From a virus: a stretch of 21,324 bases of DNA. The position numbers were made by a program, and so were the translations under genes. A model generated the notes under the pieces. That model was given only the letters and a program-made list of their open reading frames with translations, ran no database searches and was not told where the DNA came from. Below, one piece after another: positions 3,253 to 21,013 of the stretch. Within the stretch, counting starts at the first letter, position 1. Each line of letters starts with the position of its first letter. The stretch lies in IMG/VR virus record IMGVR_UViG_3300048818_000046, positions 1-21,324 of that record; one strand, 5' to 3'.

Positions 3253-3738
3253 ATGTCATTCACCAAAGGCTTGTATGAGTTACTTGCTGCTGACCCCGGA
3301 ACGTCTGCCATAGTAGGTAACCGAATCTATTTCATTCTTCAACCCAAAGGTACTAGCGTACCCAGTGTGGTTATGTCGAACATTGCAACCAATGACTTCT
3401 ACTCTCTGTCAGGTAATACAGGATTACGTGAGGGTATCTGGCAGTTTGACTGTTATGCGGCTGATTACTACTCTGCAAATGCGCTACAGTTGGCGGTACG
3501 TGCGCTACTTGAAAACTACGTTGGCAACCTACCTGATGCTGGTGCAACGGCAGTAATATCCAGCATCATAACTAAGTCATGGGACTTAGCATATGAACCG
3601 GGCTCTAAAGGGTTCATCTTCCGTAGCCTGCTAGAAGTCCGAATGCATTACTACGATGACAGCCTGCCTATAAGCACACCGTCTAACCCAGAAGCGGTCA
3701 TAGATGGCGGTACGAATACAAACGATGACACCCTGTAA
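3253..3738 (+). CDS. Tail completion/terminator protein, DUF3168 family
   Basis: 161 residues. It opens with a short helix (FTKGLYELLAADPGTSAIVGNRIYF) followed by P-x-VVMSNI, then a beta strand ending FDCYAADYYSANALQLAVRALLENY. This matches the DUF3168 pattern of 'L..d..v..lvG.RIy.......P.v......q.D.ya.......l...v...l'. These proteins (HK97 gp10/gp11 neighbourhood, lambda gpU-like fold) cap the tail tube and contact the head completion protein. The last ~25 residues (SLPISTPSNPEAVIDGGTN) are a low-complexity extension. ATG 3253 has GAGAGG upstream. The next expected gene is the tail tube or gp10-like protein, but a homing endonuclease and an adhesin gene stand between. Confidence 0.78.
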   Translation: MSFTKGLYELLAADPGTSAIVGNRIYFILQPKGTSVPSVVMSNIATNDFYSLSGNTGLREGIWQFDCYAADYYSANALQLAVRALLENYVGNLPDAGATAVISSIITKSWDLAYEPGSKGFIFRSLLEVRMHYYDDSLPISTPSNPEAVIDGGTNTNDDTL

Positions 3739-3757
3739 AAAACCTGAAGGGACCAAC

Positions 3758-4237
3758 ATGAACTTTTACACCTACATGTACTTGCGAGGAGATGCCACGC
3801 CTTATTATGTTGGTCAAGGAACGGGTAATCGCGCTTTTGAATCGCACCGGGGTGCCAAACCTCCTAGATTATCCACCAGTAAGTACAGCAGATATGACCG
3901 TAGTAGGGTGCTGATTCAGTCGCACCCTAACAAGGCAGATGCTCTTACTGCTGAGAAGTTTTTGATTGCTTATTATGGACGCAAAGACCTTGGCACGGGC
4001 ATTCTACACAATTTAACGGACGGCGGGGATGTTGGCCCGACTGGGCATAAGCACACCGCTGAGGCTCTTGCAAAGATAAGTGCAGCGAGTGTAGGTAATA
4101 CACATTGTGTTGGGAAAACCTCATGGAACAAAGGTAAAACGTGGTCCGAGTTAGCCAAACAGATGCGTTTGGCAAAGTTAAACAATATCATAAAGGCTGG
4201 TATTGACACACGGTTCTCCCGTCGATTGACGGAGTAA
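3758..4237 (+). CDS. GIY-YIG homing endonuclease with NUMOD3-like DNA-binding repeats
   Basis: 159 residues. The GIY-YIG nuclease core covers residues 1-90: YTYMYLR (4-10) and YYVGQGTGNRA (16-26) supply the GIY and YIG elements and the catalytic Arg25, and AEKFLIAYYGR has the metal-binding Glu66. The TGILHNLTDGGDVGP stretch (80-94) is typical of freestanding phage GIY-YIG enzymes. After it come HKHTAEALAKISAASVGN (98-114) and TSWNKGKTWSELAK (121-134), which resemble NUMOD3 DNA-binding motifs. Such enzymes cut an allele lacking them and spread by repair; no intron or intein is visible, so it appears freestanding. ATG 3758 is preferred (AAGGG 7 nt upstream) over the in-frame upstream opening that overlaps the DUF3168 gene. 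It interrupts the head-tail joining genes together with the following adhesin. Confidence 0.88.
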   Translation: MNFYTYMYLRGDATPYYVGQGTGNRAFESHRGAKPPRLSTSKYSRYDRSRVLIQSHPNKADALTAEKFLIAYYGRKDLGTGILHNLTDGGDVGPTGHKHTAEALAKISAASVGNTHCVGKTSWNKGKTWSELAKQMRLAKLNNIIKAGIDTRFSRRLTE

Positions 4238-4248
4238 GAGGAAACTAT

Positions 4249-5796
4249 ATGTCGGAATTTTTCAAAATTCTCCCGAGGCGTATGCCTGTGGCAAGTTTGC
4301 CCGCACACGCAACAAACGGAGAGCTAATTTTAACAACGGATACGAATCAGATTTACGTAGGTAAAGGACCTAGCGTCCCTCTTGAGATTGTTAGTAGTGG
4401 CAGTGAATTGCCCTCGGGCAGTGGCAACCTAATCCTTGCTACCCCAGCAGATGGTTCATCTGGCGTGGCCGGATTACGTGTTCTAGTCGCTGCTGACATC
4501 CCGGCGTTGTCTTATGACGCATCCGGTGCTGCAGCTTCTGCTGTCGCGACTGAAGTCACGAACCGCAATACCGCTATTGGTGTTGAAACATCCCGCGCCA
4601 CGACTGCTGAGGGATTGCTCGCGTCATCCGCTTCGTTGACGAGTGCAATCTCGACGGAAGTCACAAATCGAAATACTGCTATCGGCGTAGAGACCACTAG
4701 AGCAACAACCGCTGAGGGTCTTCTAGTACCAAAGACCACAACGGTTAACGGTTATGCCCTATCAGCAAATGTGGTTGTGTCGGCATCTGATCTAACCACG
4801 GGCACGCTGCCCCACGCGCAATTACCAGCTTTAGTGAGCGGTGATATACCCAATAACGCGGCTAATACGAGTGGCTCTGCGGGTTCGGTAGCAGCAGCTA
4901 ATGTCACTGTAGGCACGCTGGCGTCTGGTATGACGCTTGTAGCCCCCGTGCTAGGAACTCCGGCCTCGGGCACCCTTACCAATTGCACATTTCCGACCTT
5001 GAACCAAAACACTACGGGCACGGCGGCCAACCTATCCGGCACGCCCGCATTGCCCAACGGCGTAACGGCGACAACGCAAGCGATGCGCGATTATTCATCC
5101 AGCATTGCTACCACCGCATATGTTGACCAGATGTTTGATCCAACTAAAGCAGTAACACTGTTTGATGATTTCATGTCTGGCACTAATGCTACGGGCTCCG
5201 TCGGAAGTCTAGGTTGGGAGTTTACTGGAACAGGCGGTATACTTACAAATCCAAATCCAAACTCTTCTGGAACACTAGGCGAAGTATTATCCACCAGCGG
5301 TGGAACAAATACTAACGCGTTTTTGGTGTATTTAAGTTACATTACAACGGTCCCCCCTGCTGATAATCCGGGTTGGAATAGTCAAATATTTGATATGCGT
5401 TGGCGAATCAAACTAGCTAAGACTACCTCTGTCGCATACTTCTTTGGTCTGGAATCAGGTGGCCTTGCCGAAGCTACTGCTACTGATTTTATAGCTATAG
5501 CATACAACACTGGCGCAAGCGATACAGGCTTTACACTGATAACGAAAACTAGCAGTGGGGCGCGTAATGCCGTATCTATAGGCGTGTCTGCTGACACGTC
5601 CTATCACACGTTGAGACTAAGAGGGGACGGAACAGGTAGGGTATATGCCTCTGTTGATGGCGGCACTGAGGTATCAACTACAACAAGTGTACCTTCAGCG
5701 GCTCTTATACCCGCTTCATGTGTCACAACACTCACCAATGCGACCGCGGCTTTTCGACTGGATTATTGGTGGATGTTTATGGAACTAGCCCGCTAG
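4249..5796 (+). CDS. Tail fibre/adhesin with Mtd_N-like N-terminus and lectin-like C-terminus
   Basis: 515 residues. The N-terminal ~45 residues (LPRRMPVASLP, GELILTTDTNQIYVGKG) resemble the small beta domain found at the N-terminus of the Bordetella phage major tropism determinant and many tail fibres; the same type is seen at 20198 and 20720. Residues about 100-159 hold a tandem 25-residue repeat (see 4546-4725). A collar-like region follows with GTLPHAQLPALVSGDIPNN, repeated G/A/T-rich segments and TTAYVDQ (about 180-290), the usual sequence texture of trimeric fibre shafts. The C-terminal ~215 residues (from FDDFMSGT to the end) look like a concanavalin/LamG-type jelly roll with FDMRWRIKLA, YFFGLESGG, YHTLRLRGDGTG and VYASVDGG. 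Role inferred: receptor or surface binding. Its place among neck genes is unusual. Shine-Dalgarno AGAGGA upstream. Confidence 0.72.
   Translation: MSEFFKILPRRMPVASLPAHATNGELILTTDTNQIYVGKGPSVPLEIVSSGSELPSGSGNLILATPADGSSGVAGLRVLVAADIPALSYDASGAAASAVATEVTNRNTAIGVETSRATTAEGLLASSASLTSAISTEVTNRNTAIGVETTRATTAEGLLVPKTTTVNGYALSANVVVSASDLTTGTLPHAQLPALVSGDIPNNAANTSGSAGSVAAANVTVGTLASGMTLVAPVLGTPASGTLTNCTFPTLNQNTTGTAANLSGTPALPNGVTATTQAMRDYSSSIATTAYVDQMFDPTKAVTLFDDFMSGTNATGSVGSLGWEFTGTGGILTNPNPNSSGTLGEVLSTSGGTNTNAFLVYLSYITTVPPADNPGWNSQIFDMRWRIKLAKTTSVAYFFGLESGGLAEATATDFIAIAYNTGASDTGFTLITKTSSGARNAVSIGVSADTSYHTLRLRGDGTGRVYASVDGGTEVSTTTSVPSAALIPASCVTTLTNATAAFRLDYWWMFMELAR
4546..4725 (+). repeat. Tandem 25-residue fibre repeat (two copies, 4546-4620 and 4651-4725)
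   Basis: Two in-frame copies, 75 bases each, separated by 30 bases, encode (A/S)TEVTNRNTAIGVET(S/T)R followed by ATTAEGLL. Only two of 25 residues differ, yet 19 of 25 codons differ, nearly all at third positions. The pattern is a heptad-like helical or shaft repeat as seen in trimeric phage fibres. Confidence 0.9.
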
Positions 5797-6203: not shown

Positions 6204-6505
6204 TGATCTCTGATAGTCTCTCCCCTTTTGAGTATTTCTCCCAGCACCTACAAATCATAGGCTGGCCGACTTTGTGCTTTGCGGTCTGGAAAGTAACTCG
6301 ATTTATGACCACTGTGGAAACCCGTGTAGTAGGTTCCGAAACACATATTACAGCGATGGCAACTAACCACTTCCCGCACATGGAAGCCAGCCTCGCTAAT
6401 CAAGATACATTACTGAAATCTGTGGATCAATCTTTGAAGACTTTAGTCAGCAACGATGCACCCAGCAGACCCCGCAAAGCACGCAGAACGCCCCGCAGAG
6501 CCTAA
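6200..6505 (+). CDS. Small protein with one membrane-spanning segment, function unknown
   Basis: 101 residues; start ATG 6200 overlaps the stop of the gp10-like gene (ATGATGA), a common coupling arrangement; the second ATG at 6203 is equally possible. A hydrophobic segment near residues 18-35 (LQIIGWPTLCFAVWKVTRF) could span the membrane once. It is followed by an amphipathic stretch with several Thr/Ser and a strongly basic C-terminus (SRPRKARRTPRRA). That architecture, one N-terminal span, a helix and a basic tail, is seen in some small phage membrane proteins including holin-like ones. No lysis enzyme lies next to it, so a holin call is not made. It sits between neck genes and a glycosyltransferase; a membrane partner for the latter is conceivable but not shown. 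Confidence 0.6.
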   Translation: MMISDSLSPFEYFSQHLQIIGWPTLCFAVWKVTRFMTTVETRVVGSETHITAMATNHFPHMEASLANQDTLLKSVDQSLKTLVSNDAPSRPRKARRTPRRA

Positions 6506-6598: not shown

Positions 6599-7327
6599 AT
6601 GCTCCCTCCAGTAAGCGTAATAATGCCGTGTGGGTACGGTGAGGGTTACTTTCCCTTGGCCCTTAAATGTTTCCTCAGACAAGATTACAAAGGTCCACTG
6701 GAACTAATCTTCCTCGACAACAACATAACACCTGTTGAACACCTACTACCTAAAGATGATCGCATCAAGTATCACCGATGCGGACGTATGCCGATAGGTG
6801 ATTTGAGGAATCTCTGCTGTGAACTAGCAACAGGAGACATCATAGTCCATTTTGACGAGGATGATTGGTCATCCTCTGACCGAATATCAACCCAAGTAGA
6901 ACTGTTGCAACGTTCGGGTACATCAATGGTGGGTTACACAAACATTCTGTACTACCAGATGGCCCCAGATTCGACCGGGGGTACCTACAAGTACTACTTT
7001 GACATTTCTACAATCCGTGGGGGCAGGTTTGGAGTCCTTACGCAATCCAAATATGCCACAGGGACTTCCCAGATGTACCTAAGGGATTGGTGGAAGAAAC
7101 ATCCTTTCCAATCTCTGGGTAGGGGGGAAGATTACTGGGCACAGGATACAGCAAACAAGGCTGGGCAACTGCACAGCGTTGACGGAGGACACTACGTAGT
7201 AGCCCGAGCACACCCCGGTTCACTATCACCACCAATGCTAGGACATGCACAATTCCCGCAGGTTCCCCGCGCCGACTTCCCCGAGCAGTTCTTCACTGAC
7301 ACACAAACACACAGTTTTTCTGCCTGA
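6599..7327 (+). CDS. Family 2 glycosyltransferase (first of two paralogues)
   Basis: 242 residues. A GT-A fold family 2 transferase: PVSVIMPCGY at the N-terminus (nucleotide-binding strand), FLRQDYKGPLELIFLDNN (25-42), MPIGDLRNLCCELATGD (64-80) and the metal/nucleotide-sugar binding DEDDW at 86-90, followed by SDRISTQV. These enzymes move a sugar from a nucleotide-sugar to an acceptor. A second gene of the same length at 17320 shares the RNLC-ELA-G and D(E/D)DDW blocks, so they are paralogues. No membrane anchor is visible; the protein should be cytosolic. Placed just before the tail tube gene, it could glycosylate virion proteins in the infected cell; modification of host surface sugars is the alternative. 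Acceptor and sugar cannot be told from sequence. Confidence 0.83.
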   Translation: MLPPVSVIMPCGYGEGYFPLALKCFLRQDYKGPLELIFLDNNITPVEHLLPKDDRIKYHRCGRMPIGDLRNLCCELATGDIIVHFDEDDWSSSDRISTQVELLQRSGTSMVGYTNILYYQMAPDSTGGTYKYYFDISTIRGGRFGVLTQSKYATGTSQMYLRDWWKKHPFQSLGRGEDYWAQDTANKAGQLHSVDGGHYVVARAHPGSLSPPMLGHAQFPQVPRADFPEQFFTDTQTHSFSA

Positions 7328-10768: not shown

Positions 10769-11440
10769 ATGTCTTACCCCATAATGCCAACACTCCCTAT
10801 CTCGATGGGTAAAGGTTTAAAGAAGTCACCAGCATTCAACAACGCTGTGCAGCGTGTCGCTGCTGATAGGGGCAACGCGGCTATCAGTTTTAAACCTTAT
10901 CCAACCTGGAATTTTGAATTCGACATGGACCGCATCACAGGAAACGAAGCCGCTGCATCGTCAGTGCTCGCCCAGTTCATGGGCACCCTGATGGTGTGCA
11001 ACGGTTCTGCACAACTTTTCCTTTTCACCGACACGCAAGATAACGCTTTAGTTTATGCAAACAGCGGAATGCTGGATGTCACACCCGCGTCTGCTACCCC
11101 GATGGGCACCACTGGAAACGGTGTTAGTACGAAGTTTCAATTGGCTCGCTCTATTGGCGGTATCGCTTGGGATGTCATACAGAACACGAACGGTTCTCCA
11201 GCCATAAAGGTGAACGGAGTCACGAAGACGGCTGGCACTGACTACAGCATCAGCAGCACGGGCGTAGTCACGTTCGTCGCTGCTCCTGCGAACGGCTTCT
11301 CTCTGACATGGCAGGGCAGCTTTTATTTCCTCTGTCGTTTCTCTGACAACACAGTTGACTCTACCCGAGTATTTACCACTAACTCAGGTACCGACCAATG
11401 GGACGTGTCGAGCATAACCTTTTCCTCGGAGTTTGTTTAA
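10769..11440 (+). CDS. Distal tail protein, DUF2460 (GTA gp12-like)
   Basis: 223 residues. DUF2460 proteins form the distal ring of GTA-like and related siphovirus tails just beneath the tape measure. Recognisable blocks: an N-terminal PTLPISMGKGLKKSPAFNN with a following SFKPYPTWNFEFDMDRITG (strand-rich arm), a central STGTKFQLARSIGG-type segment (the family motif 'GDG..T.FqL.R.yg'), VKVNGV-(T/K)-type strand with TGTDYSISSTGVVTFVAAPANGFSLTW, and FYFLCRFSDNT near the C-terminus (the 'F..PVRFdtD' position; here the V is replaced by C). Start ATG at 10769 is 3 bases after the tape measure stop. Next to the DUF2163 gene as expected. Alignment would be needed to see how far the N-terminus deviates. 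Confidence 0.82.
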   Translation: MSYPIMPTLPISMGKGLKKSPAFNNAVQRVAADRGNAAISFKPYPTWNFEFDMDRITGNEAAASSVLAQFMGTLMVCNGSAQLFLFTDTQDNALVYANSGMLDVTPASATPMGTTGNGVSTKFQLARSIGGIAWDVIQNTNGSPAIKVNGVTKTAGTDYSISSTGVVTFVAAPANGFSLTWQGSFYFLCRFSDNTVDSTRVFTTNSGTDQWDVSSITFSSEFV

Positions 11441-11441
11441 T

Positions 11442-12383
11442 ATGAAGCGCTTAATGTCTAGCACTCTGATTACATGGTTGCAAGCCAATCCAAATGCACT
11501 AAAGGCGGACCTGTTTGTGATGACGTTGCCTACAGGTACCACCTTCTACGTCACCGAGGGCCAGTGGGATTTAACGATCCCCTCGGGCACCCCCGGCTGG
11601 TCTGGTGCTACTACCACGTTCCTAGCAACAACTTATGGTCGATGGAACCGGGGCAGCATCACGAGCGAAGCAAGCGCGGGCTGTAAAGCAAACACGATGG
11701 CACTTACCTGTGTTCCACAACCCTCAACAGTCTATCCGGGTATGGCTATTGGTTTACTCAATGCGGCACTGAATGGTTTATTTGATGCGTCAGCGATCAC
11801 CGTCTATACGGCGTACATGCCTCTGGGTTCTTATGGCACGATTCCGGCAGGTGGTATTGAAACTAAATTCACGGGCACGATTACAAAGGTGCCAAATGTG
11901 AACCGACTAAAAGTAGACTTCGAGTGCGCTGATCCATTCTACTTGTTAAACACAAATGTACCTACGCGACTATTCCAGTCTAACTGTCCTTTGGGTTTCT
12001 GTGATTCTAACTGTACGCTGGTCGCAGCAACTTATACACAGGCATTCACCGCTAAGTCTGGAAGCACCCAATACCTTCTTACACCCGTCTCTGCATTCAC
12101 GCAGGCCGCTGGGTGGTCAACACAGGGAGTAGTCAAGTGCACGGCTGGCGCTAATGCGGGTTTGAGTCAATCGGTAAAACTACACGACTCGTCCGGAAAC
12201 CTTCAACTGATGAATCCATTCCTACTCCCCGTAACTGCGGGTGACACTTTCAGCGTTATTGCAGGGTGTGATAAGACAGTGACTTCCTGTAAGTCGCGAA
12301 AGACCGCAGCAGGTGCGTCGGTCGATAACTCATCTCACTTCATGGGCTATCCGTTTATCCCACCGCCAACCTCCGCGCTGTAG
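11442..12383 (+). CDS. Tail hub protein, DUF2163 / phage BR0599 family (GTA gp13-like)
   Basis: 313 residues; ATG 11442 immediately follows the previous stop (TAATATG). The C-terminal half (about 180-313) has the BR0599-type signature: FQSNCPLGFCDSNCTL (Cys182, 187, 191), then GCDKTVTSC (Cys276, 283), then GYPFIPPP at the end, where the family has 'C.kF.N..nF.G.P.iP'. The clustered cysteines are the feature that in the related RcGTA hub and lambda gpL holds an iron-sulfur cluster; presence of the cluster here is inference. N-terminal domain (about 1-170) follows the DUF2163 layout, with LITWLQANPNALKADLFVMTLPTG. The protein should sit between the DUF2460 ring and the J/megatron protein, next to the NlpC/P60 gene. 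Confidence 0.84.
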   Translation: MKRLMSSTLITWLQANPNALKADLFVMTLPTGTTFYVTEGQWDLTIPSGTPGWSGATTTFLATTYGRWNRGSITSEASAGCKANTMALTCVPQPSTVYPGMAIGLLNAALNGLFDASAITVYTAYMPLGSYGTIPAGGIETKFTGTITKVPNVNRLKVDFECADPFYLLNTNVPTRLFQSNCPLGFCDSNCTLVAATYTQAFTAKSGSTQYLLTPVSAFTQAAGWSTQGVVKCTAGANAGLSQSVKLHDSSGNLQLMNPFLLPVTAGDTFSVIAGCDKTVTSCKSRKTAAGASVDNSSHFMGYPFIPPPTSAL

Positions 12384-12855: not shown

Positions 12856-15800
12856 ATGGGTATCTTCACAGGTAATAAAGCATCGACCTCGCGTGTCAAT
12901 GATATTCGTGTCACAAGTTCATCGCAAGGCAAACCTGTACCTGTGGTCATGGGGCAAGGTCGCATTCACCAGAGCCTACTTTGGTTGGATGGTCTGGTCT
13001 CGTGGAAGTCCGACCAAGGTGGCAAGGGCGGCGGCAAAGGCTCTGCTGGGTATATATACGCGAGCGACGTCATAGCGGGGCTCTGTAATGGCCCTGTAAC
13101 ATCTATTGGAAATGTATGGGACGGCCAGACACAGCTTAGTGCTACATCCAAGAATGATTCAATAACTATTGCTGCGGTCTACGCTCCGTCGTATCCTGTT
13201 CAGTTGCTTGCGGACAATGGTGTGTCCCTAGTTACAACTTATAGCGCCACGTACAACGACTTTGGCGCACCCGCGTCAACCGTGTTGAGTGGTTCTGACG
13301 CAGCACCAATGGTGTTGAAGCCTTACGGCACGGTGCTCACGACTGGGCAATACTCCATCAACCCGGCATCTATAGGGACATTTGTTCTGTCTGCAGTCGC
13401 CAACGCTTCAGGCGGTAACACAGTTTATACGGGTACATTCACAGGCGGCACTTCGCCGTATGGCAGTGGTGCGTCCAATGCTTACATCGGATTTGCTTTT
13501 GTCATCACTGGCTTCACTAACCCTCTGAACAATGGCACGTTTGTTTGTGTCGCTTCATCTGCGGCAAATGTCACGTTGGCTAATGCTAACGGTGTTGCTC
13601 AATCCCACGCGGGCAGTGCAGTAGAAACGGGAAACACTTATCACTTCGCAGCAACCGACGTAGGTAAGTCAGCAGTAATTAATTATCAACTCAGCATTCA
13701 GGAAATAAACAACCAAGAGACTGACGTGATCCCATCTGGTCTTGGCATCACCGTTGGTGGAACATATAACCCTGTAGCTGATATGGGCGTCCTCTGGTAT
13801 AGCACTAGCGGAACGCCCGGACCAAACGACATGCAACCTCTTACGCATGTCACCGGAACCCCGAGTACAGGCCAATACAAATTCACTACACCCGGAAGTG
13901 GCAGCACGGGTGGCGCACAATATACCTTTGCGACAGCAGACATAGGTAAGGAAGTCCTGATTTCTTATAAGTATGAGAATCTAAGCGCAGCTACGGGAAA
14001 CTCACCGAACCTTCTGAAGTTTGAATTGTTCGGTGGTGGGCTCGGTCAAGCTGTATGGCCTTTCATTCTGTCTGGTGGTACATCACTAATTGGAACACAA
14101 GACGGTGGGCAGGCTCCTCGGGAAACAGCTTTTCCGGGTGCGGCTCTTGGTTACAGTAACACGGCGTATCTGGCCTATGGTCCTATGTCGTTAGGTAGCG
14201 CTGGTGAGATACCAGACATCACGGTAGAAGTAATTACCCCGGATTCGTTCGGCGGTGGCATCGTCGATTGCAATCCAATTCAGTGCATAACTCAGGTACT
14301 CACAAATACTGTGTGGGGACTAGGCGCGGGTGCAGTCCCATTCCCTGTGTCAGCACTTGACAACGGTGCTTCAGGGACTTGGGGTGGTGCAGTTGGGACA
14401 CCGGGCACCCGCTCGGTAGGTTCTACTGCGTGGAATTGGTTTTCCTCTAATAGTTTCTTTATATCCCCAGTGCTTGATTCACAGGACAGCGCAGCGAGTC
14501 ACATCGGTAAATGGCTAGAAGCTGGAGCATGTTCAGCCTTCATGTCCGAAGGTCTGCTTAAAATCGTGGCTTATGGTACGCAGAGCACAGCGGCCAATGG
14601 TTGCACTTGGGTAGCACCCTCATCGGCAGTTGTGGCTTTAGATGATTCTTGCTTCATTGCTAAAGATGGTGAAGACCCGGTCAAGATTTCTCGTGAACCA
14701 TATACGGATGGCTACAACGAAGTGCAGGTTACATGGAACAATAGAGCCTATCAGTATTCTGGTGAACTTACACAAGAGTTCGACCAAGCCTGTATCAATC
14801 GTTGGGGCCTGAGAATAGAAGACCCACAAAGTTGGAACTTCATCACAACACTGCCCGCTGCGATCTTCTCTGCGAACATGCGTGTAAAGCGGTCAGTGAA
14901 CATCCGCAATACCTACACATTCACGTTACCCTTCACTTACTCCTATCTGGAACCGATGGACCTTGTAACCATCAGCACCACTAGTCTGTGGGCAGCAGGT
15001 TTGAATAATGTGAATCTCGGACTGACTAACTTTCCGGTTCGCATCAAGACGATTGTTGACGACCCTATTACTGGGTTGGAAGTGACTTGCGAAGATTCAC
15101 TATTCTCTGTGGGCGTCCCTGTCATTTTTAACAAGGGCATATCAGCAGGAGATACGATTGTAAATGCATACGCGAACCCCGGAAATTCAGAAATCGTAAT
15201 GTTTGAAGCGACAAGCCGTTTGACTGGTTACATAGGAAATGAGATTTGGATAGGGGCTTGTGGAACTTCTAACGACTACGGAAGTACAAACGTCTGGGTC
15301 TCTCGTGACAACTCCGCTTATCTTCAGGTTGGAACTATAGACCAGCAGGCCCGTATGGGTGTACTGGACTCTACGTTCGCTTCAGGCTCTGATCCTGATA
15401 CGACTAACTCACTAATTGTTGACATGGTTGAGAACAGTGGTCAACTAGAAGCGGGCTCTACAACAGATGCTGACAATGGAACTACTCTATGCTTCGTAGA
15501 TGGGGAAATAATCTCATACTCTTCATGCGCTATTAGTGGTCAGAATCAGTACACGATGGGTCCGAGCGGAAGCCCTGCAACATCCTATATTCGTCGCGGT
15601 CAGATGAAAAGCACTATCGGTTCACACGCTGCAGGAAGTTTGTTCCTACGTCTTGATTCATCGGTGTTTAAATATACTTATGATCCAACGTGGGCAGGCC
15701 AAACGCTCTATTTTAAATTCCAAGCGGTTAACACGTTCGGAAACATGGCACAGGACATCAGCACGCTTACGCCTGTGACTTTTGTTGTACCGGGTGCTAA

Positions 15801-17079
15801 CCCCGGCACCGTAGATGCTTCTAGCGGTTTGATTGTCCCTGCTGCACACTTGGGACAATGCCCTGTGATAGTTCCAACGTCAGTAAGCAATAATCTTACG
15901 AACGGTGGAGCAATTGGGCAATGGGTTATTCCCTGTACGGTTTCAGTTCCCGGCACATTAGAGTTTGATATATCTAGTAACGCCGGAGCAATCTTCGACC
16001 TGCTCATTTATACATCCCAAACTGCAGGGCCAAACGGCTACATAATTCGATATGATGCACGCTCGGGTTCCAACGCAGGGCAAATTCTAGTCCTAACAAA
16101 CGGAACGTGGACAAACATAGGAACTGCACAAACTGCTGTCAACAGCACAACACTATCAAACTGGCATCACGTTCAAGCAGTGCTAGGCACCAATGGCAAG
16201 ATAGACGTGTTCGTTGATGGTATTTGGCAATGCACAGCACGAGACTTGACGCACCCAATCCAAACAGTGCCCGTAGAAGTTGCTTACGGCTACGAACAGG
16301 TTGCGGGAATGACGCTTGCACCCACAGGGTTTACAACTAAGACCCTAGACATATTCCCCGGACAGATTGCCAGCCAATTACGCACTAAACCCGCTGTGGC
16401 AACGGGTGCATTCACCAGTACCAATCCATTAAGCCAAAGTGGAACCACTAAAACCATCCTAATCGCATCGAGCACTGTTCAATGGGGGACTAACGCAGTC
16501 TCATATAACAGCGGTTCCGTTACGCCCGCTACTTATGGGCTTAAATACGTTTACGCGGATGACCCAACTTTCACTGGTGGAGCAGTTACCTATGTTTCTA
16601 CCGCTAACCAACTTGATCTAAACTCGAATGATGGCCGCGTGTGCTTCGGCTTCATTACTACGGCAATTGGCGGGGGTGGGTCTGGCGGCGGTGGTGGCTC
16701 TACTTGCTTCAGTCCGAATACAAAAGTCATAACGCAGCGCGGTGGCATCCCATTCAGCGAGATTCGTGATGGTGATTTGGCACTAACTGCTCGTGGCACA
16801 TGGCGGCGAATCATTCTAGTTACTTCGCATGAATTCTCTGGCGAAGGGTTAGACATGGGCAATGATGAATTCGTGACAAGAGGGCATCACTTCAGGCATA
16901 ACGATGAATGGATGCACGCTTACGAAATGGGCATCTTCGCACCTAAACAGTATGAGGGTGTAATTGCCAACCTCTGGATTGAAGCCGAACCTGATGACGA
17001 TGGCAGCGGCCTTGATACTGAGCATTCGTATACTCTCGCAAATGGGTACGTCGTTCACAACATCATGGCCACCAACTAA
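12856..17079 (+). CDS. J/megatron-like tail tip protein with LamG-like and C-terminal Hint domain
   Basis: 1407 residues. The N-terminal ~110 residues (VNDIRVTSSSQGKPVPVVMGQGRIH, GKGGGKGS, YIYASDVIAGLCNGPV) are typical of gpJ/GTA gp15-type tip proteins, as is the region about 560-760 (DSAASHIGKWLEAG, ISREPYTDGYNEVQVTWNNR). Between them are two copies of a beta domain with TGQY...GK...Y (residues 159-279 and 331-373); the first holds an 80-residue inserted module (176-255). Residues about 1015-1150 resemble a LamG-like lectin (WHHVQAVLGTNGKIDVFVDG). After a GGGGSGGGGGS linker, residues 1284-1407 form a Hint domain: Cys1284 (nt 16705-16707) in CFSPNTKV, block B as VTRGHHF, and an ending VVHN plus IMATN. 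The protein binds host receptor at the tail tip; autoprocessing by Hint is inferred. It starts at the base after the NlpC stop, with GAAGGG (12840-12845) upstream. Confidence 0.85.
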   Translation: MGIFTGNKASTSRVNDIRVTSSSQGKPVPVVMGQGRIHQSLLWLDGLVSWKSDQGGKGGGKGSAGYIYASDVIAGLCNGPVTSIGNVWDGQTQLSATSKNDSITIAAVYAPSYPVQLLADNGVSLVTTYSATYNDFGAPASTVLSGSDAAPMVLKPYGTVLTTGQYSINPASIGTFVLSAVANASGGNTVYTGTFTGGTSPYGSGASNAYIGFAFVITGFTNPLNNGTFVCVASSAANVTLANANGVAQSHAGSAVETGNTYHFAATDVGKSAVINYQLSIQEINNQETDVIPSGLGITVGGTYNPVADMGVLWYSTSGTPGPNDMQPLTHVTGTPSTGQYKFTTPGSGSTGGAQYTFATADIGKEVLISYKYENLSAATGNSPNLLKFELFGGGLGQAVWPFILSGGTSLIGTQDGGQAPRETAFPGAALGYSNTAYLAYGPMSLGSAGEIPDITVEVITPDSFGGGIVDCNPIQCITQVLTNTVWGLGAGAVPFPVSALDNGASGTWGGAVGTPGTRSVGSTAWNWFSSNSFFISPVLDSQDSAASHIGKWLEAGACSAFMSEGLLKIVAYGTQSTAANGCTWVAPSSAVVALDDSCFIAKDGEDPVKISREPYTDGYNEVQVTWNNRAYQYSGELTQEFDQACINRWGLRIEDPQSWNFITTLPAAIFSANMRVKRSVNIRNTYTFTLPFTYSYLEPMDLVTISTTSLWAAGLNNVNLGLTNFPVRIKTIVDDPITGLEVTCEDSLFSVGVPVIFNKGISAGDTIVNAYANPGNSEIVMFEATSRLTGYIGNEIWIGACGTSNDYGSTNVWVSRDNSAYLQVGTIDQQARMGVLDSTFASGSDPDTTNSLIVDMVENSGQLEAGSTTDADNGTTLCFVDGEIISYSSCAISGQNQYTMGPSGSPATSYIRRGQMKSTIGSHAAGSLFLRLDSSVFKYTYDPTWAGQTLYFKFQAVNTFGNMAQDISTLTPVTFVVPGANPGTVDASSGLIVPAAHLGQCPVIVPTSVSNNLTNGGAIGQWVIPCTVSVPGTLEFDISSNAGAIFDLLIYTSQTAGPNGYIIRYDARSGSNAGQILVLTNGTWTNIGTAQTAVNSTTLSNWHHVQAVLGTNGKIDVFVDGIWQCTARDLTHPIQTVPVEVAYGYEQVAGMTLAPTGFTTKTLDIFPGQIASQLRTKPAVATGAFTSTNPLSQSGTTKTILIASSTVQWGTNAVSYNSGSVTPATYGLKYVYADDPTFTGGAVTYVSTANQLDLNSNDGRVCFGFITTAIGGGGSGGGGGSTCFSPNTKVITQRGGIPFSEIRDGDLALTARGTWRRIILVTSHEFSGEGLDMGNDEFVTRGHHFRHNDEWMHAYEMGIFAPKQYEGVIANLWIEAEPDDDGSGLDTEHSYTLANGYVVHNIMATN
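13381..13620 (+). repeat. NNGTF module, copy 1 (inside the J-like protein)
   Basis: Residues 176-255 of the tip protein: a VYTGTFTGG strand, an insert of glycines and SNAYIGFAF, then VITGFTNPLNNGTFVC and a closing VTLANANG strand. It shares the order YTG-x-GG-x-Na-x-G-x-F-x-v-t-x-F, NNGTFxC, TLxN with the copies at 18415 and 19516. Confidence 0.75.
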
Positions 17080-17087
17080 GGAGCAGC

Positions 17088-17318
17088 ATGGAGCACATAA
17101 CTAAAATCCTCGAAAAGAAAAAGTTGAGCGATGGTCAGATCGCAGTGCTGATACAGTGCTGCGATGAGTCTCATCAATCATGGCACACGCTGAGTATCAC
17201 TAAGGACACTACATCTGAGGATGTGACTGGTTGGTTAACCGACCGACAGTCTCACGTTCAGGACAGCCACGCTACAGCAGAAGCTGTAGATACACAGTTG
17301 GCTGCACTCATCGGATAG
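17088..17318 (+). CDS. Small hypothetical protein of the tail-tip operon
   Basis: 76 residues; ATG 17088 has a clear AAGGAG (17079-17084) that overlaps the preceding stop region. The sequence is acidic-to-neutral with an N-terminal helix (MEHITKILEKKKLSDGQIAV), a middle strand region with SHQSWHTLSI, and a C-terminal helix (AEAVDTQLAALIG). No signal peptide, membrane segment or known motif is seen. Its position, directly after the J-like protein and one base before a glycosyltransferase gene (stop TAG 17316-17318, next ATG 17320), suggests a small chaperone or accessory protein for the tip or for the transferase. I do not recognise the family. Confidence 0.6.
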   Translation: MEHITKILEKKKLSDGQIAVLIQCCDESHQSWHTLSITKDTTSEDVTGWLTDRQSHVQDSHATAEAVDTQLAALIG

Positions 17319-17319
17319 T

Positions 17320-18048
17320 ATGGAACCCTTAGTGTCCTGTGTTTGTCCCACAGGAAACCGTCAATCCCTGATAATGATGGCTATTGATTGTTTCCTGTCA
17401 CAGACCTACCCGAACAAAGAATTGATTGTGCTCGATGATGGGGTATCGCCAACCAGCGTGCCCTGCCATCCCTCAATCAAATACCATCGTCACGTCGGAC
17501 CCAAGTTGACCACAGGTGCAAAGCGCAATCTCTGCAATGAATTAGCAGCGGGCGAAGTCATCTGTAATTGGGACGATGATGATTGGTCTCATCCTAGCCG
17601 TGTATCCGTACAGGTAAATCACCTTGTTACTTCCGGCAAAGCATTTACCGGATTTGGACAGATGTATTTCCACGGTAATGACAGCACCTTCCTTATGTCG
17701 AACTGTGGTGGTGGTCTAGGTACCGCACAGTGTTACACCAAAGCATTCTGGCAATCTCATCCTTACCCGAGCATACAGACAACGGAAGACATTTTGTTCT
17801 GTCAAGCAGCAGAGAGATTGGGGGAATGCTCAGTGATCTCTGGCGAAGGGATGATGGTAGCCCGCAGGCACCCAAGCAACTCATGGGACACAATAAATAT
17901 ACTCGACCTAAGACGGTGCACGCCCGTATATGTTTCTGAGTTACCCACAGGTTTCTTGGCAGCTATAGGGATTCCCAAAGACCCTTCGTACACCCTAGGA
18001 AGTCGCCCTCCGGCATTCGTCCACAAGAGTTATGGAGTTCAGATATAG
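17320..18048 (+). CDS. Family 2 glycosyltransferase (second paralogue)
   Basis: 242 residues, exactly as long as the gene at 6599. Sequence blocks: PLVSCVCPTGNR (3-14), DCFLSQTYPNKELIVLDDG (23-41), TTGAKRNLCNELAAGEV (64-80), catalytic DDDDW (85-89) followed by SHPSRVSVQVNHL, and a TEDILFC acidic motif further on. This is the GT-A/family 2 pattern; the RNLC-ELA-G-x-I and D(D/E)DDW blocks are shared with the first paralogue, while the first ~60 residues differ more. Located between the tip protein and the ice-binding-like fibre, so it might glycosylate these adhesins; an alternative is modification of host surface sugars. No membrane anchor is visible. The sugar donor cannot be told. Start is one base after the previous stop, so translation is likely coupled. 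Confidence 0.82.
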   Translation: MEPLVSCVCPTGNRQSLIMMAIDCFLSQTYPNKELIVLDDGVSPTSVPCHPSIKYHRHVGPKLTTGAKRNLCNELAAGEVICNWDDDDWSHPSRVSVQVNHLVTSGKAFTGFGQMYFHGNDSTFLMSNCGGGLGTAQCYTKAFWQSHPYPSIQTTEDILFCQAAERLGECSVISGEGMMVARRHPSNSWDTINILDLRRCTPVYVSELPTGFLAAIGIPKDPSYTLGSRPPAFVHKSYGVQI

Positions 18049-18267
18049 ATTCACACTTTACGCACCACCGCTTATGCGGAGACATCTACAGATACTTGTC
18101 TGAAGTTCTTCTAGGTCATCATGTTTTGTGATGCGCCCTTTCTCATGTTGTAACATAGTAAGTATATCCTACTCAGGATAGTAATGTTGGGGCCGTGAGC
18201 CCAAAGTCCCGCAGCACTAGCAGCGGTGTGCTACTAAAACAATTACCCCTGCAGAAAAGATTACACA
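18049..18267 (+). other. Structured non-coding gap (219 bases) before the ice-binding-like fibre gene
   Basis: No coding frame is supported. It contains a hairpin TATCCT/AGGATA (18165-18170/18175-18180, loop ACTC), another, AGCAC/GTGCT (18213-18217/18228-18232), and a TTGGG/CCCAA stem near 18187-18204. Together with a possible promoter at 18126-18154, this is the longest gap in the operon and looks like a 5' leader for the fibre genes. Confidence 0.5.
18126..18154 (+). promoter_or_regulatory. Possible sigma-70-type promoter for the fibre genes
   Basis: TTGTGA (18126-18131) and TGTAAC (18149-18154), 17 bases apart, each match four of six consensus positions. A start would lie about 18161, giving a leader of ~107 bases. 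Weak match; support comes mostly from the long gap. Confidence 0.3.
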
Positions 18268-19947
18268 ATGTTAACACCTGAAATCGTATTACAGTGGAAC
18301 GTCGTACCCGGCGCTTCTACTTACAACGTCTATCGCGGTGCAACTAAAGCCAGCGTTAGCGATACCCCCTATGCAACAGGAATCACAGCCCCTGCCCCAA
18401 TCAGTGGCTCCCCGTTCTCCATGACCTCATGCGCGACTGGGACAAGCGGTTCAACCCTTTACACAGGTACCTTCTCCAATGGCGGAAGTAATGCCTTTGC
18501 TGGGCGTAGCTTCACAGTTACAGGCTTCACTAATGCTATAAACAACGGCACCTTCCTGTGTACAGCAAGCACGATCACAACCATCACCCTAGGCAATCCT
18601 TCGGGTACGGCTGAGACAGCGACTGCTTTTGCTGCAGTGGTTACGGACCCTATCGCCCACGTCACTTACACTGACCTTGCTGTGATCCCCGGTCGGAGTT
18701 ACTTCTATGAAGTGACATGCGTAAGCCGTGGCGTTGAAAGTGCTGACTCCCTTGGTATCGAATCAGCACCTGTGCCATTCGACTTCACCCCGATTAGCCC
18801 AGACTTGAATGGGTTGGATAACTTCAGCGTTCTCGCTGCGTCAACCATCACAAACACGGGCTCTACTACGATCCTTGGTGATGTAGGTCTATACCCCGGC
18901 ACTTCTATCACTGGGTTCCCTCCCGGCGCTTTGTCGGGATTGATTCATACTGCAGACTTCGTGTCCGCTACGGGACAAGGAACCGCCCAGACACTCTATA
19001 CCGCACTGCAAGCGTATGCACCGACGGCAACCCTCGCTGGTGATATCGGCGGCATGACCTTGGCTCCCGGTGTTTACAAATCCACATCGTCGCTTGCCAT
19101 CACAGGTGAGTTACAACTTGACGCTGGTGGGAATCCTAATGCTGTCTGGATTTTTCAGATCGCTTCAACGCTTACAACTGCCGCATCTAACAGCACCATT
19201 GTCATGACAAATGGCGGTAACGCTGGAAACGTATTCTGGCAGGTTGGTAGCTCAGCAACCATTGGCACCGCTACCACTTTCACAGGCTGCGTCGTAGCTC
19301 AGGCTTCAATCACGGTCAATACAGGTGCATCGGTTTCTGGACGGTTGATTGCTCTTGTAGGGGCCATCACGCTGGATAGCAACAGCATCATATTATTTGA
19401 TTCGGCTCCCTTCGTGCTGTATGCCGCAGGTAATGAGTACGTTGCAGGCGAAATAATCTTCGATACAACTAGTGGATTGTTCGAGGTAGTTTCTACAGCT
19501 GGTGTGGCGGGTCCGTTCGTGTTCGCTCTGAGTTCAGTTGCGGATGCTGTGTCCGGTTCTGCTGTCTACACTGGCGTCATCAGCGGTGGAGCGGGGAATG
19601 CTCTTGTAGGACATACGTTCTCCGTCACTGCGTTCGCTGGAACAACTGTTACTGCGAGTCCTAACAACGGAACGTTTCTGTGCTCTGGGTCATCTGCTAC
19701 AACCTTGACCCTGAATAACCCCGCAGCTATTTCCGAAGTATCTTCGGGAACTGCTACAGATATGGCACCAGCGCGTGGACCGTTCCCAACCGTGCCCGGT
19801 GTTTACACAACTGACGGCACTGTTGTGTGGTACTCGGTCAGCCCAGTAGGTGTATTCCTGCAGCTGCCGTTGCCACCTTCGCCACCTAATGTCCCACCCA
19901 CACCCCCTGCAGCACCAACGGGTCTGATTATCACGTTGGAAACCTAA
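18268..19947 (+). CDS. Tail fibre/adhesin with fibronectin-III-like, DUF3494 ice-binding-like and inserted modules
   Basis: 559 residues. Residues about 6-47 plus about 127-170 form a fibronectin type III-like domain (VLQWNVVPGASTYNVYRG; then HVTYTDLAVIPGRSYFYEVTC), split by an inserted ~73-residue module (50-122). Residues about 180-382 match the DUF3494 ice-binding-protein fold: NFSVLAASTITNTGSTTILGDVG, PGVYKSTSSLAITGELQLDAG, NAVWIFQIASTL and VAQASITVNTGASVSGRLIA, about 200 residues as usual. Residues about 395-545 are a second beta domain (YVAGEIIFDTTSGLFEVVS ... TTDGTVVWYSV) split by another copy of the module (417-496), then a proline-rich end. Such a protein is likely a virion adhesin or fibre; ice binding is one possibility among several for this fold. 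ATG 18268 has only a weak ribosome site (GAAAAG). Confidence 0.75.
   Translation: MLTPEIVLQWNVVPGASTYNVYRGATKASVSDTPYATGITAPAPISGSPFSMTSCATGTSGSTLYTGTFSNGGSNAFAGRSFTVTGFTNAINNGTFLCTASTITTITLGNPSGTAETATAFAAVVTDPIAHVTYTDLAVIPGRSYFYEVTCVSRGVESADSLGIESAPVPFDFTPISPDLNGLDNFSVLAASTITNTGSTTILGDVGLYPGTSITGFPPGALSGLIHTADFVSATGQGTAQTLYTALQAYAPTATLAGDIGGMTLAPGVYKSTSSLAITGELQLDAGGNPNAVWIFQIASTLTTAASNSTIVMTNGGNAGNVFWQVGSSATIGTATTFTGCVVAQASITVNTGASVSGRLIALVGAITLDSNSIILFDSAPFVLYAAGNEYVAGEIIFDTTSGLFEVVSTAGVAGPFVFALSSVADAVSGSAVYTGVISGGAGNALVGHTFSVTAFAGTTVTASPNNGTFLCSGSSATTLTLNNPAAISEVSSGTATDMAPARGPFPTVPGVYTTDGTVVWYSVSPVGVFLQLPLPPSPPNVPPTPPAAPTGLIITLET
18415..18633 (+). repeat. NNGTF module, copy 2 (inside the fibronectin-like domain)
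   Basis: Residues 50-122 of the fibre: LYTGTFSNGGSNAFAG, FTVTGFTNAINNGTFLC and TTITLGNPSGTAE. Conserved with copies at 13381 and 19516. Confidence 0.75.
19516..19755 (+). repeat. NNGTF module, copy 3 (inside the C-terminal domain)
   Basis: Residues 417-496: VYTGVISGGAGNALVG, FSVTAFAGTTV, SPNNGTFLC and TTLTLNNPAAISE. It has a longer loop before NNGTF than the other copies. Confidence 0.72.
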
Positions 19948-19955
19948 GCCTTTCT

Positions 19956-19980
19956 TACCCGGTGTGTATTACACCGGGTA
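19956..19980 (+). other. Perfect 10-bp hairpin between fibre genes
   Basis: TACCCGGTGT (19956-19965) pairs exactly with ACACCGGGTA (19971-19980) around GTATT. No T-run follows on the + strand, so it is not a typical terminator; it may be an mRNA processing or stabilising element between the large fibre gene and the short ones. Confidence 0.55.
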
Positions 19981-19994
19981 GATTTGGATACCTT

Positions 19995-20186
19995 ATGGCA
20001 ATCTCCAATGGCGAAACGTCAGGCTCTAACCCACTCGCGGCCTCAGCAAACTGGAATTTATCTTGGGCTCCCAGTGGGATGGTTCTGATATCAGATGGTT
20101 TTGGAAATGTAGCTTCTAGCTATGTCCCTCTCTCAAGTCTTGAGGGTGGCGCAGCAGCACGCAACCAAGACTGCGGAACTTTTTAA
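19995..20186 (+). CDS. Short tail-fibre-associated protein ending in DCGTF
   Basis: 63 residues if started at the ATG of 19995; an upstream GTG at 19962 is in frame but lies within the 10-bp hairpin stem, so the ATG is preferred even though its ribosome site (GGA, 8-10 bases upstream) is weak. The sequence is Ser/Ala/Gly-rich (SNGETSGSNPLAASANWNLSW, then GMVLISDGFGNVASSYVPLSSL) like segments of phage fibres, and ends NQDCGTF. The neighbouring 170-residue protein ends with the same DCGTF. Possibly a small receptor-binding or fibre-assembly partner. A remnant of a longer fibre gene is the alternative. Followed after 11 bases by the next start, with AAGGGG overlapping its stop. Confidence 0.55.
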   Translation: MAISNGETSGSNPLAASANWNLSWAPSGMVLISDGFGNVASSYVPLSSLEGGAAARNQDCGTF

Positions 20187-20197
20187 GGGGACATTCT

Positions 20198-20710
20198 ATG
20201 GCTCTAAACATCAAAATCCAAACATACCGGGGCACCAAAAGTGCCCTCGCATCTTTGGCCTCAACTGGTTTTGCTGGTGTACTCGCATGGACTACTGATT
20301 CAAACGAACTTTTCGTTGACAGCGGTTCGGGCTCGGGCATCGGCTCAGCTTGGATGCCTATACACGCGGGTCACAGCGTATTTACGGTAGCCAATCAAGC
20401 TGCTCTAATCACCCTTGCCACATCCAACATTGGCGACTTCGCCATTAGCAGTGGAAATGGCATCACCTACATACTGGCTGCTCTACCAGCCTCGACCGCT
20501 GGCAACTGGACAGCGATCACCCAACCGGATGTCACGCCTCTCGGGGCACCTGTCGTGCATGAGTGGGTTACATACATTGATGCAGCAGGCGTTCAGCATC
20601 TCTCTCAGCCTGCATTTACGGACATCAGCGGGTTGCTGGCACAGACGCAGCTACCAGCAACGATAGGGGCGGGAAGCAGCCTTACCAATATAGACTGTGG
20701 CACGTTTTAG
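20198..20710 (+). CDS. Tail fibre protein with Mtd_N-like N-terminus, ending in DCGTF
   Basis: 170 residues. The first ~45 residues (IKIQTYRGTKSALASL, GVLAWTTDSNELFVDSGSG) have the 'R.g....ip.L..Ge.....D...l.vg.g' texture of the Mtd_N-like fibre domain, as at 4249 and 20720. The rest (WMPIHAGHSVFTVANQAALITLATSNIGDFAIS, then ITYILAALPASTAGNWTAI) resembles the 'vadqaaml.L.a..GDvair......tyil' module often seen in tail fibres, and there is a collar-type GLLAQTQLPATIGAGSSLTN near the end. The C-terminus is DCGTF, shared with the preceding short protein. AAGGGG before the ATG is a good ribosome site. Probably a virion adhesin. Confidence 0.7.
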   Translation: MALNIKIQTYRGTKSALASLASTGFAGVLAWTTDSNELFVDSGSGSGIGSAWMPIHAGHSVFTVANQAALITLATSNIGDFAISSGNGITYILAALPASTAGNWTAITQPDVTPLGAPVVHEWVTYIDAAGVQHLSQPAFTDISGLLAQTQLPATIGAGSSLTNIDCGTF

Positions 20711-20719
20711 GGAGGGCTT

Positions 20720-21013
20720 ATGGCTCGTAATGTAGGCGTACAACATCTTCGTGGTGTAAAAGCCAACATTCCCACTCTAGAGCAAGGTGAACTTTATCTG
20801 GCAACCGATGAAGTGCAAGTCTACGTCGGCACAGCGTCTGGGAATGAACTCATTCTCCTCAACACGGTGGGGACTCCGAACGGTTCTCCCGGTCAAAGCG
20901 TGACCGTATCCAAGATCGGTACGGGTACAGGCCCAGCCTCGACAACGGCAATCGTGGGGTTCACCAAGATCATAATCAGGGGTGTCACCTACTGGATGCC
21001 CCTCTTCCGGTAA
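20720..21013 (+). CDS. Short tail fibre protein with Mtd_N-like domain
   Basis: 97 residues; ATG 20720 with GGGAGGG (20710-20716) upstream. NVGVQHLRGVKANIPTLEQG followed by ELYLATDEVQVYVGTASG is the clearest of the three Mtd_N-like domains in the window: the conserved R, L..GEL, TD and (V/I)YVG elements are all visible. The remaining ~45 residues form a short Gly/Thr-rich strand region ending with KIIIRGVTYWMPLFR, a hydrophobic closing strand like those found at the ends of prophage tail proteins. In Bordetella phage BPP-1 such a domain anchors the tropism determinant, but here no lectin domain or variable region follows, so it may be a minimal fibre or capping protein. Last gene before the operon terminator. 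Confidence 0.7.
   Translation: MARNVGVQHLRGVKANIPTLEQGELYLATDEVQVYVGTASGNELILLNTVGTPNGSPGQSVTVSKIGTGTGPASTTAIVGFTKIIIRGVTYWMPLFR

Follow-up and report, generated by a model that had tools for sequence, protein, structure and literature searches.

The window analysed here, a 21,324-base IMG/VR virus record, contains the structural genes of a tailed phage, and two of the encoded proteins contain between them three copies of a segment of about 75 residues, each lying within a different domain. What this segment is, how it comes to interrupt domains that are otherwise unrelated, and what it might contribute to a virion are the questions that the locus raises.

Three copies of a module in the tail tip and fibre-like proteins

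Genes recognized in the window include those for a portal, a Clp-type protease, head completion, a tape measure, DUF2460, a Phage_BR0599 baseplate-hub-type protein, NlpC/P60 and the tip protein. The last of these, a tail tip protein of 1407 aa (12856-17079, on the + strand, as are the module copies and domains located below), matches Pfam Phage-tail_3 (PF13550, E 3.8e-15) and Rcc01698_C (PF23666, E 9e-9) and falls with tail proteins in PHROG; it carries the first copy of the module. The other two are in a fibre-like protein of 559 aa (18268-19947), which has an FN3 domain split by the module, an Ice_binding domain and a C-terminal domain split by the module, and which, to judge from its position and domains, is probably a virion component. 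The same region has a homing-endonuclease-like ORF with a NUMOD3 motif (3704-4237), flanked by structural genes, and two family 2 glycosyltransferase-like ORFs (6599-7327 and 17320-18048), one of which lies between the tip and fibre genes. Weak matches to Mtd_N, the N-terminal domain of the major tropism determinant, occur just under the cut-off in the ORFs at 4249-5796 and 20720-21013. The C-terminal end of the tip protein (approximately 16702-17076) is a Hint-like stretch (Hint_2, E 4e-4, below the cut-off) that starts with TCFSPNTKV and ends with VVHN and is possibly self-processing; a similar end is seen at locus L039.

Copy 1 (13381-13620; tip residues 176-255) lies between strands of the first of two TGQY...GK...Y domains, as indicated by alignment, profiles, a structural model and an empty-site homologue (L007:4884-8204). 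Copy 2 (18415-18633; fibre residues 50-122) is nested in the FN3 domain, the halves of which occupy approximately 18268-18402 and 18649-18768. Copy 3 (from 19516 or 19522 to 19755; fibre residues 417 or 419 to 496) is nested in a domain that extends from GLFEVVS to TTDGTVVWY, with halves at about 19417-19515 and 19756-19842. A first-pass annotation had defined the three copies by a set of shared motifs, all of which are present; the copies, each of some 75 residues, have pairwise identities of 40-49% (BLAST E 3e-10 to 8e-15), and profile searches of the window recovered these three and no others.

The modules are 66% G/A/S/T/N, and the likeness of the three segments could in principle reflect shared low-complexity composition alone. 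The Smith-Waterman scores of the three copies (151-181) are nevertheless far above those of 2000 composition-preserving shuffles (means of 43-44, and never more than 99), so that the copy-to-copy match is not an effect of composition; the gap lengths at module sites are also bimodal, either about 0 or 70-80, the latter being one module length, and we give an explanation by composition a negligible probability. Recent copying within one genome, which the first-pass annotation had also doubted, finds no support, as copies within a genome are on average no more alike than those between genomes (mean likeness 0.47 and 0.48 respectively), and most of the closest pairs lie next to each other in a single protein.

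The tip protein provides an internal control, as had been noted from the sequence at the outset. Its second TGQY domain (13849-13974) has a short loop alone at the corresponding place, which is evident both from alignment of the two domains (GSAVETGNTYHFAATDVGKSAVINYQ compared with GSGSTGGAQYTFATADIGKEVLISYK) and from the tip model, in which the two domain copies have a similar strand order and the module is situated between the first strands of the first copy only.

Empty sites and the predicted fold

Homologues with and without the insert were both found. In a two-sided test, the 80-residue flanks of each module block were searched separately, with random 75-residue excisions in the same proteins as the control; an empty-site homologue was found for 54 of the 90 testable blocks, compared with 2 of 52 random excisions. 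The number of distinct module sites is approximately 39-47, depending on the site clustering used. Empty-site counts obtained with joined flanks were discarded, as joins at random positions, used as a control, passed at about the same rate (48 and 47 of 65) because BLAST bridges or slides across the junction.

Each copy in the window has an empty counterpart elsewhere. At the tip site, the window sequence ...TGQYSINPA[86 residues]TGNTYHF... corresponds to ...TGQYSIDPA-TGNYHF... in the L007 homologue. The FN3 domain of the fibre homologue in L134 is without copy 2, and in the L131 homologue the copy 2 site is empty by the strict two-sided test. Homologues in L130, L013, L131 and L135 are without copy 3, and show that the GLFEVVS...TTDGTVVWY domain is split by the module, as the first-pass annotation had proposed. 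The empty sites of copy 2 in L134 and of copy 3 rest on multiple alignments because their flanks are unsuited to separate searches, the left flank of copy 2 being short and the Pro-rich right flank of copy 3 giving no significant separate hit. The pattern can also be reciprocal: L007 carries the module in its BR0599-type protein, at a site that is empty in the window (12190-12205, within the ORF at 11433-12383), and is without it in the tip protein, where the window has it. L135 has a copy of its own (6253-6462) inside its Ice_binding domain, at a place where homologues have none. Because the empty sites are clean, and presence is reciprocal in two proteins of related phages, the steps of domain insertion can be reconstructed.

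In an AlphaFold2 model of the tip region (mean pLDDT of 86, and over 90 for the greater part of the module), strands of the host domain flank the module on both sides. The barrel of copy 1 (model residues 52-141) is most similar to the FCCH domains of Uba6 and Uba1 (Z 8.1-8.4, rmsd 2.0-2.2); next, at Z of about 7, come phage tail proteins, a segment of the phi92 endosialidase (Z 7.0) and EF-Tu barrels. For copy 2 (fibre model residues 43-128), FCCH is again the best match, with Z up to 8.8. The fibre model from 1 to 167, module included, can be superposed on single FN3 domains, with about 75 residues aligned. The two models therefore indicate that copies 1 and 2 fold separately and that the interrupted FN3 domain is complete without its insert, and the fibre model makes visible the split fibronectin-like domain that had been described in the first-pass annotation. 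As modelled, copies 1 and 2 are self-contained small beta-barrels nested in host domains; the model of copy 3 has pLDDT values mostly below 55.

Had the segments been integral strands of the surrounding domains, they should occur in all homologues, a reading that we consider very improbable given the empty-site homologues and the separate barrels, with no integral strands, in the models of copies 1 and 2. The homologues without the insert and the models lend strong support to the module being a nested insertion in loops of other domains, with gain and loss not polarised at single sites. The idea that it travels as a loop insertion has thus held up, with empty-site homologues for all three copies in the window and for most testable sites elsewhere. 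A mobile genetic element such as an intein or a homing or transposable insert was considered and rejected, as the insert is an in-frame domain of about 75 aa with no other content and no such profile hit.

Distribution and possible function of the module family

Two scans of IMG/VR gave 46 loci and the best 80 of 87, which together represent at least 90 distinct contigs, and iterated profiles identified at least 225 module copies in 167 open frames (at least 132 in 98 non-redundant frames). No family in Pfam, NCBIfam or PHROG covers the module, and no solved structure in the PDB matches it by sequence; a PDB sequence match to the filamentous phage g3p (21 residues, E 0.28) was rejected as chance. 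A Pfam search of 38 module copies produced weak hits alone, CelD_N appearing in 8 of the 38 with E 0.001 at best, and no Ig-family hit at significance.

A scan of 84,980 species genomes of bacteria and archaea with one peptide pattern found, by contrast, a single locus, in an uncultured archaeon assembly; it is on a phage-like contig, where adjacent frames contain the module too and are homologous to frames of the viral loci. This assembly (LFW-28) has seven module matches over three contigs, and it probably holds virus contigs because the locus concerned, L050, resembles phage structural genes. The module is likely to be absent from cells, although rarity there is not proved because the scan used one peptide pattern, and from its sequence distribution we regard the module as an undescribed domain family restricted to phages. 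The sole record with the module in the phage collection is that of Tunturiibacter phage Tunturi_3 (PP885686), in which gp7 has two tandem copies. Host proteins of the module also include the BR0599-type protein and unnamed structural frames of about 310 and 450 aa, none of which has a known receptor role.

Charged residues (D/E/K/R) make up 2.8% of the module, compared with 10.5% elsewhere in the proteins that carry it and 17% across all frames longer than 150 residues. The invariant residues (G, Y, N, F, T and L) look structural, and there is no ligand patch of conserved aromatic or charged residues. The EF-Tu fold matches led us to consider nucleic-acid or tRNA binding, as in EF-Tu domain II; this was set aside because the module is nearly free of charge.

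We suggest that the module takes the place of a short loop of the host domain, and that recombination between phages may drop it into such a loop or delete it again with the host fold intact. As replacement of a short loop would leave the host fold unbroken, the module could spread as a plug-in at the protein level, with no mobility machinery of its own. On the virion it would be an outward-facing decoration, perhaps with many copies that each bind weakly to the host envelope or to polysaccharide around it, and in this phage it would decorate the tip and the fibre-like protein, in which FN3 and ice-binding-type domains are combined as well. The full reading, that of a phage-restricted, autonomously folding beta-barrel of about 75 residues nested in the exposed loops of virion proteins of many unrelated kinds as an outward decoration spread by recombination, has in our estimation roughly an even chance of being correct; its computed parts are the existence of the family, the nested position of the module, the empty sites and the separate barrel in the models of two of the three copies.

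A binding decoration is plausible, and weak multivalent binding is our first choice of function, with a probability near one half, followed by an inert spacer. A decoration is favoured by the low charge, by the presence of the module in tip and fibre-like proteins, where FN3 and ice-binding domains are its neighbours, and by the phi92 endosialidase among the matches in fold, and the autonomy of the module by the FCCH-matching barrel in two independent models and by tandem copies in Tunturi_3 gp7 and others. The structural look of the invariant residues counts against a decoration, as does the presence of the module in some proteins with no known receptor role. These two points favour a structural spacer or stabiliser, as do the tandem rows; such a domain would likewise be nested and separately folding, with a mechanical role in spacing domains, filling gaps or shielding loops, and would bind no ligand. 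A spacer would not need the unusual lack of charge, however, and the variation in presence at the same site between close homologues argues that the module is dispensable to its host domain, so that we see this role as possible, if on balance unlikely. The module could instead be a passenger, a loop-tolerant domain that is shuffled by recombination and of little or no use to the phage; this would account for the many sites, the patchy presence and the lack of a fixed partner, and requires no mobility gene. Retention of the same core over deep divergence in 98 proteins, with no stop codon among the matches listed, suggests selection, and makes a passenger improbable.

The ice-binding domain and comparison with known systems

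Between the two module copies of the fibre-like protein is an Ice_binding (PF11999 / DUF3494) domain (18829-19389; fibre residues 188-374), identified by profile and by fold and absent from the first-pass annotation. The profile match has an E-value of 2.4e-57 and a score of 194 bits against a curated cut-off of 28.7 (E 1e-57 to 1e-60 in a further search), and comparison with 6eio by sequence gives E 4e-50. The model is a DUF3494 beta-solenoid with Z 31-35 to 25 ice-binding protein entries, among them 6eio (Z 34.8, 45% identity). Of 52 virus records examined, 13 have an Ice_binding domain. Five of these had been selected by that domain, and the other 8 come from the 47 records selected for the module or the window. 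The domain is part of a fibre-like phage protein in the window, L130-L136, L028, L031, L020, L027 and L122. A search of 50,697 phage records gave no match to the Ice_binding domain of the fibre-like protein, and we found no paper that combines DUF3494 with ice-binding and phage. Six Ice_binding matches, several of them in long open frames, are present in L008 (IMGVR_UViG_3300038465_000091, 223 kb).

The genes directly downstream of the fibre gene match between the window (19890-21010), L131 (7040-7851) and L130 (6880-7566), which are otherwise different phages, whereas the tip protein matches through the module only; this suggests that the fibre gene and its neighbours move as a cassette. In Arctic viruses, PF11999 genes have been described as auxiliary (PMC11515562). 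Some viral 'ice-binding' genes that have until now been classed as auxiliary host genes may be virion parts. The low charge of the module and the company of adhesive-type domains make a shared surface function a testable proposition. In its boldest form, a near-charge-free barrel confined to phages would be a general plug-in in loops of dozens of virion protein families, even inside an ice-binding domain, forming an interchangeable surface-adhesion layer, and the fibre would anchor virions to ice or another surface through DUF3494; we offer this combination as speculative and rather unlikely.

By profile and fold, the fibre domain is a full member of the DUF3494 / Ice_binding proteins such as 6eio, but the known proteins are cellular, while this one belongs to a multi-domain fibre-like protein encoded near the tail tip gene. 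Tunturi_3, a podovirus of an acidobacterium (Tunturiibacter) from a soil sample in Finland (PMC11924767), shares the module as two head-to-tail copies in gp7 (PP885686); it differs in its podovirus type, in the tandem arrangement and in that the gene adjoins the major head protein gene. For both modelled copies the best fold match is E1_FCCH (PF16190) of Uba1 and Uba6, with borderline Z scores of 8.1-8.8 and rmsd of 2.0-2.7 over 72-79 residues. In E1 enzymes, FCCH too interrupts another domain. The identity to the module is 9-16%, however, and the tip and fibre proteins have no E1 adenylation domains and no E1 function. The PF16190 profile has no match at E <=0.1 in 38 module copies and none at module positions in 22 records, hhalign of the module with phage FCCH-like sequences gave a probability of 0.3% (a shallow alignment of three sequences), and the papers found on the FCCH domain and phage concern ubiquitin-type pathways. 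We therefore claim a similar fold and not shared ancestry, since Z near 8 can reflect a common arrangement and the profile comparison was null.

The comparison with phage Ig-like domains made in the first-pass annotation survives as a likeness in role. No Ig family was matched at significance, and the structure-comparison matches listed for copies 1 and 2 are barrels, closest to E1 FCCH, in a list that need not show every similar fold. Phage virion proteins are known to be modular, their modules usually being viewed as swapped ends or tandem beads, and the Ig-like, BIG2 and FN3 accessory domains are small beta domains that occur on many virion proteins, are present or absent between relatives and have been proposed to bind weakly. 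Modular decoration of virions is thus known as a general behaviour, and the novelty here is one small, undescribed family nested with unusual clarity inside many unrelated domains. Like the Ig-like, BIG2 and FN3 domains, the module is a small beta domain added to many virion proteins and variable between relatives; unlike them, it has a different closest fold and is mostly nested in loops and not appended, even to the point of interrupting an FN3 domain.
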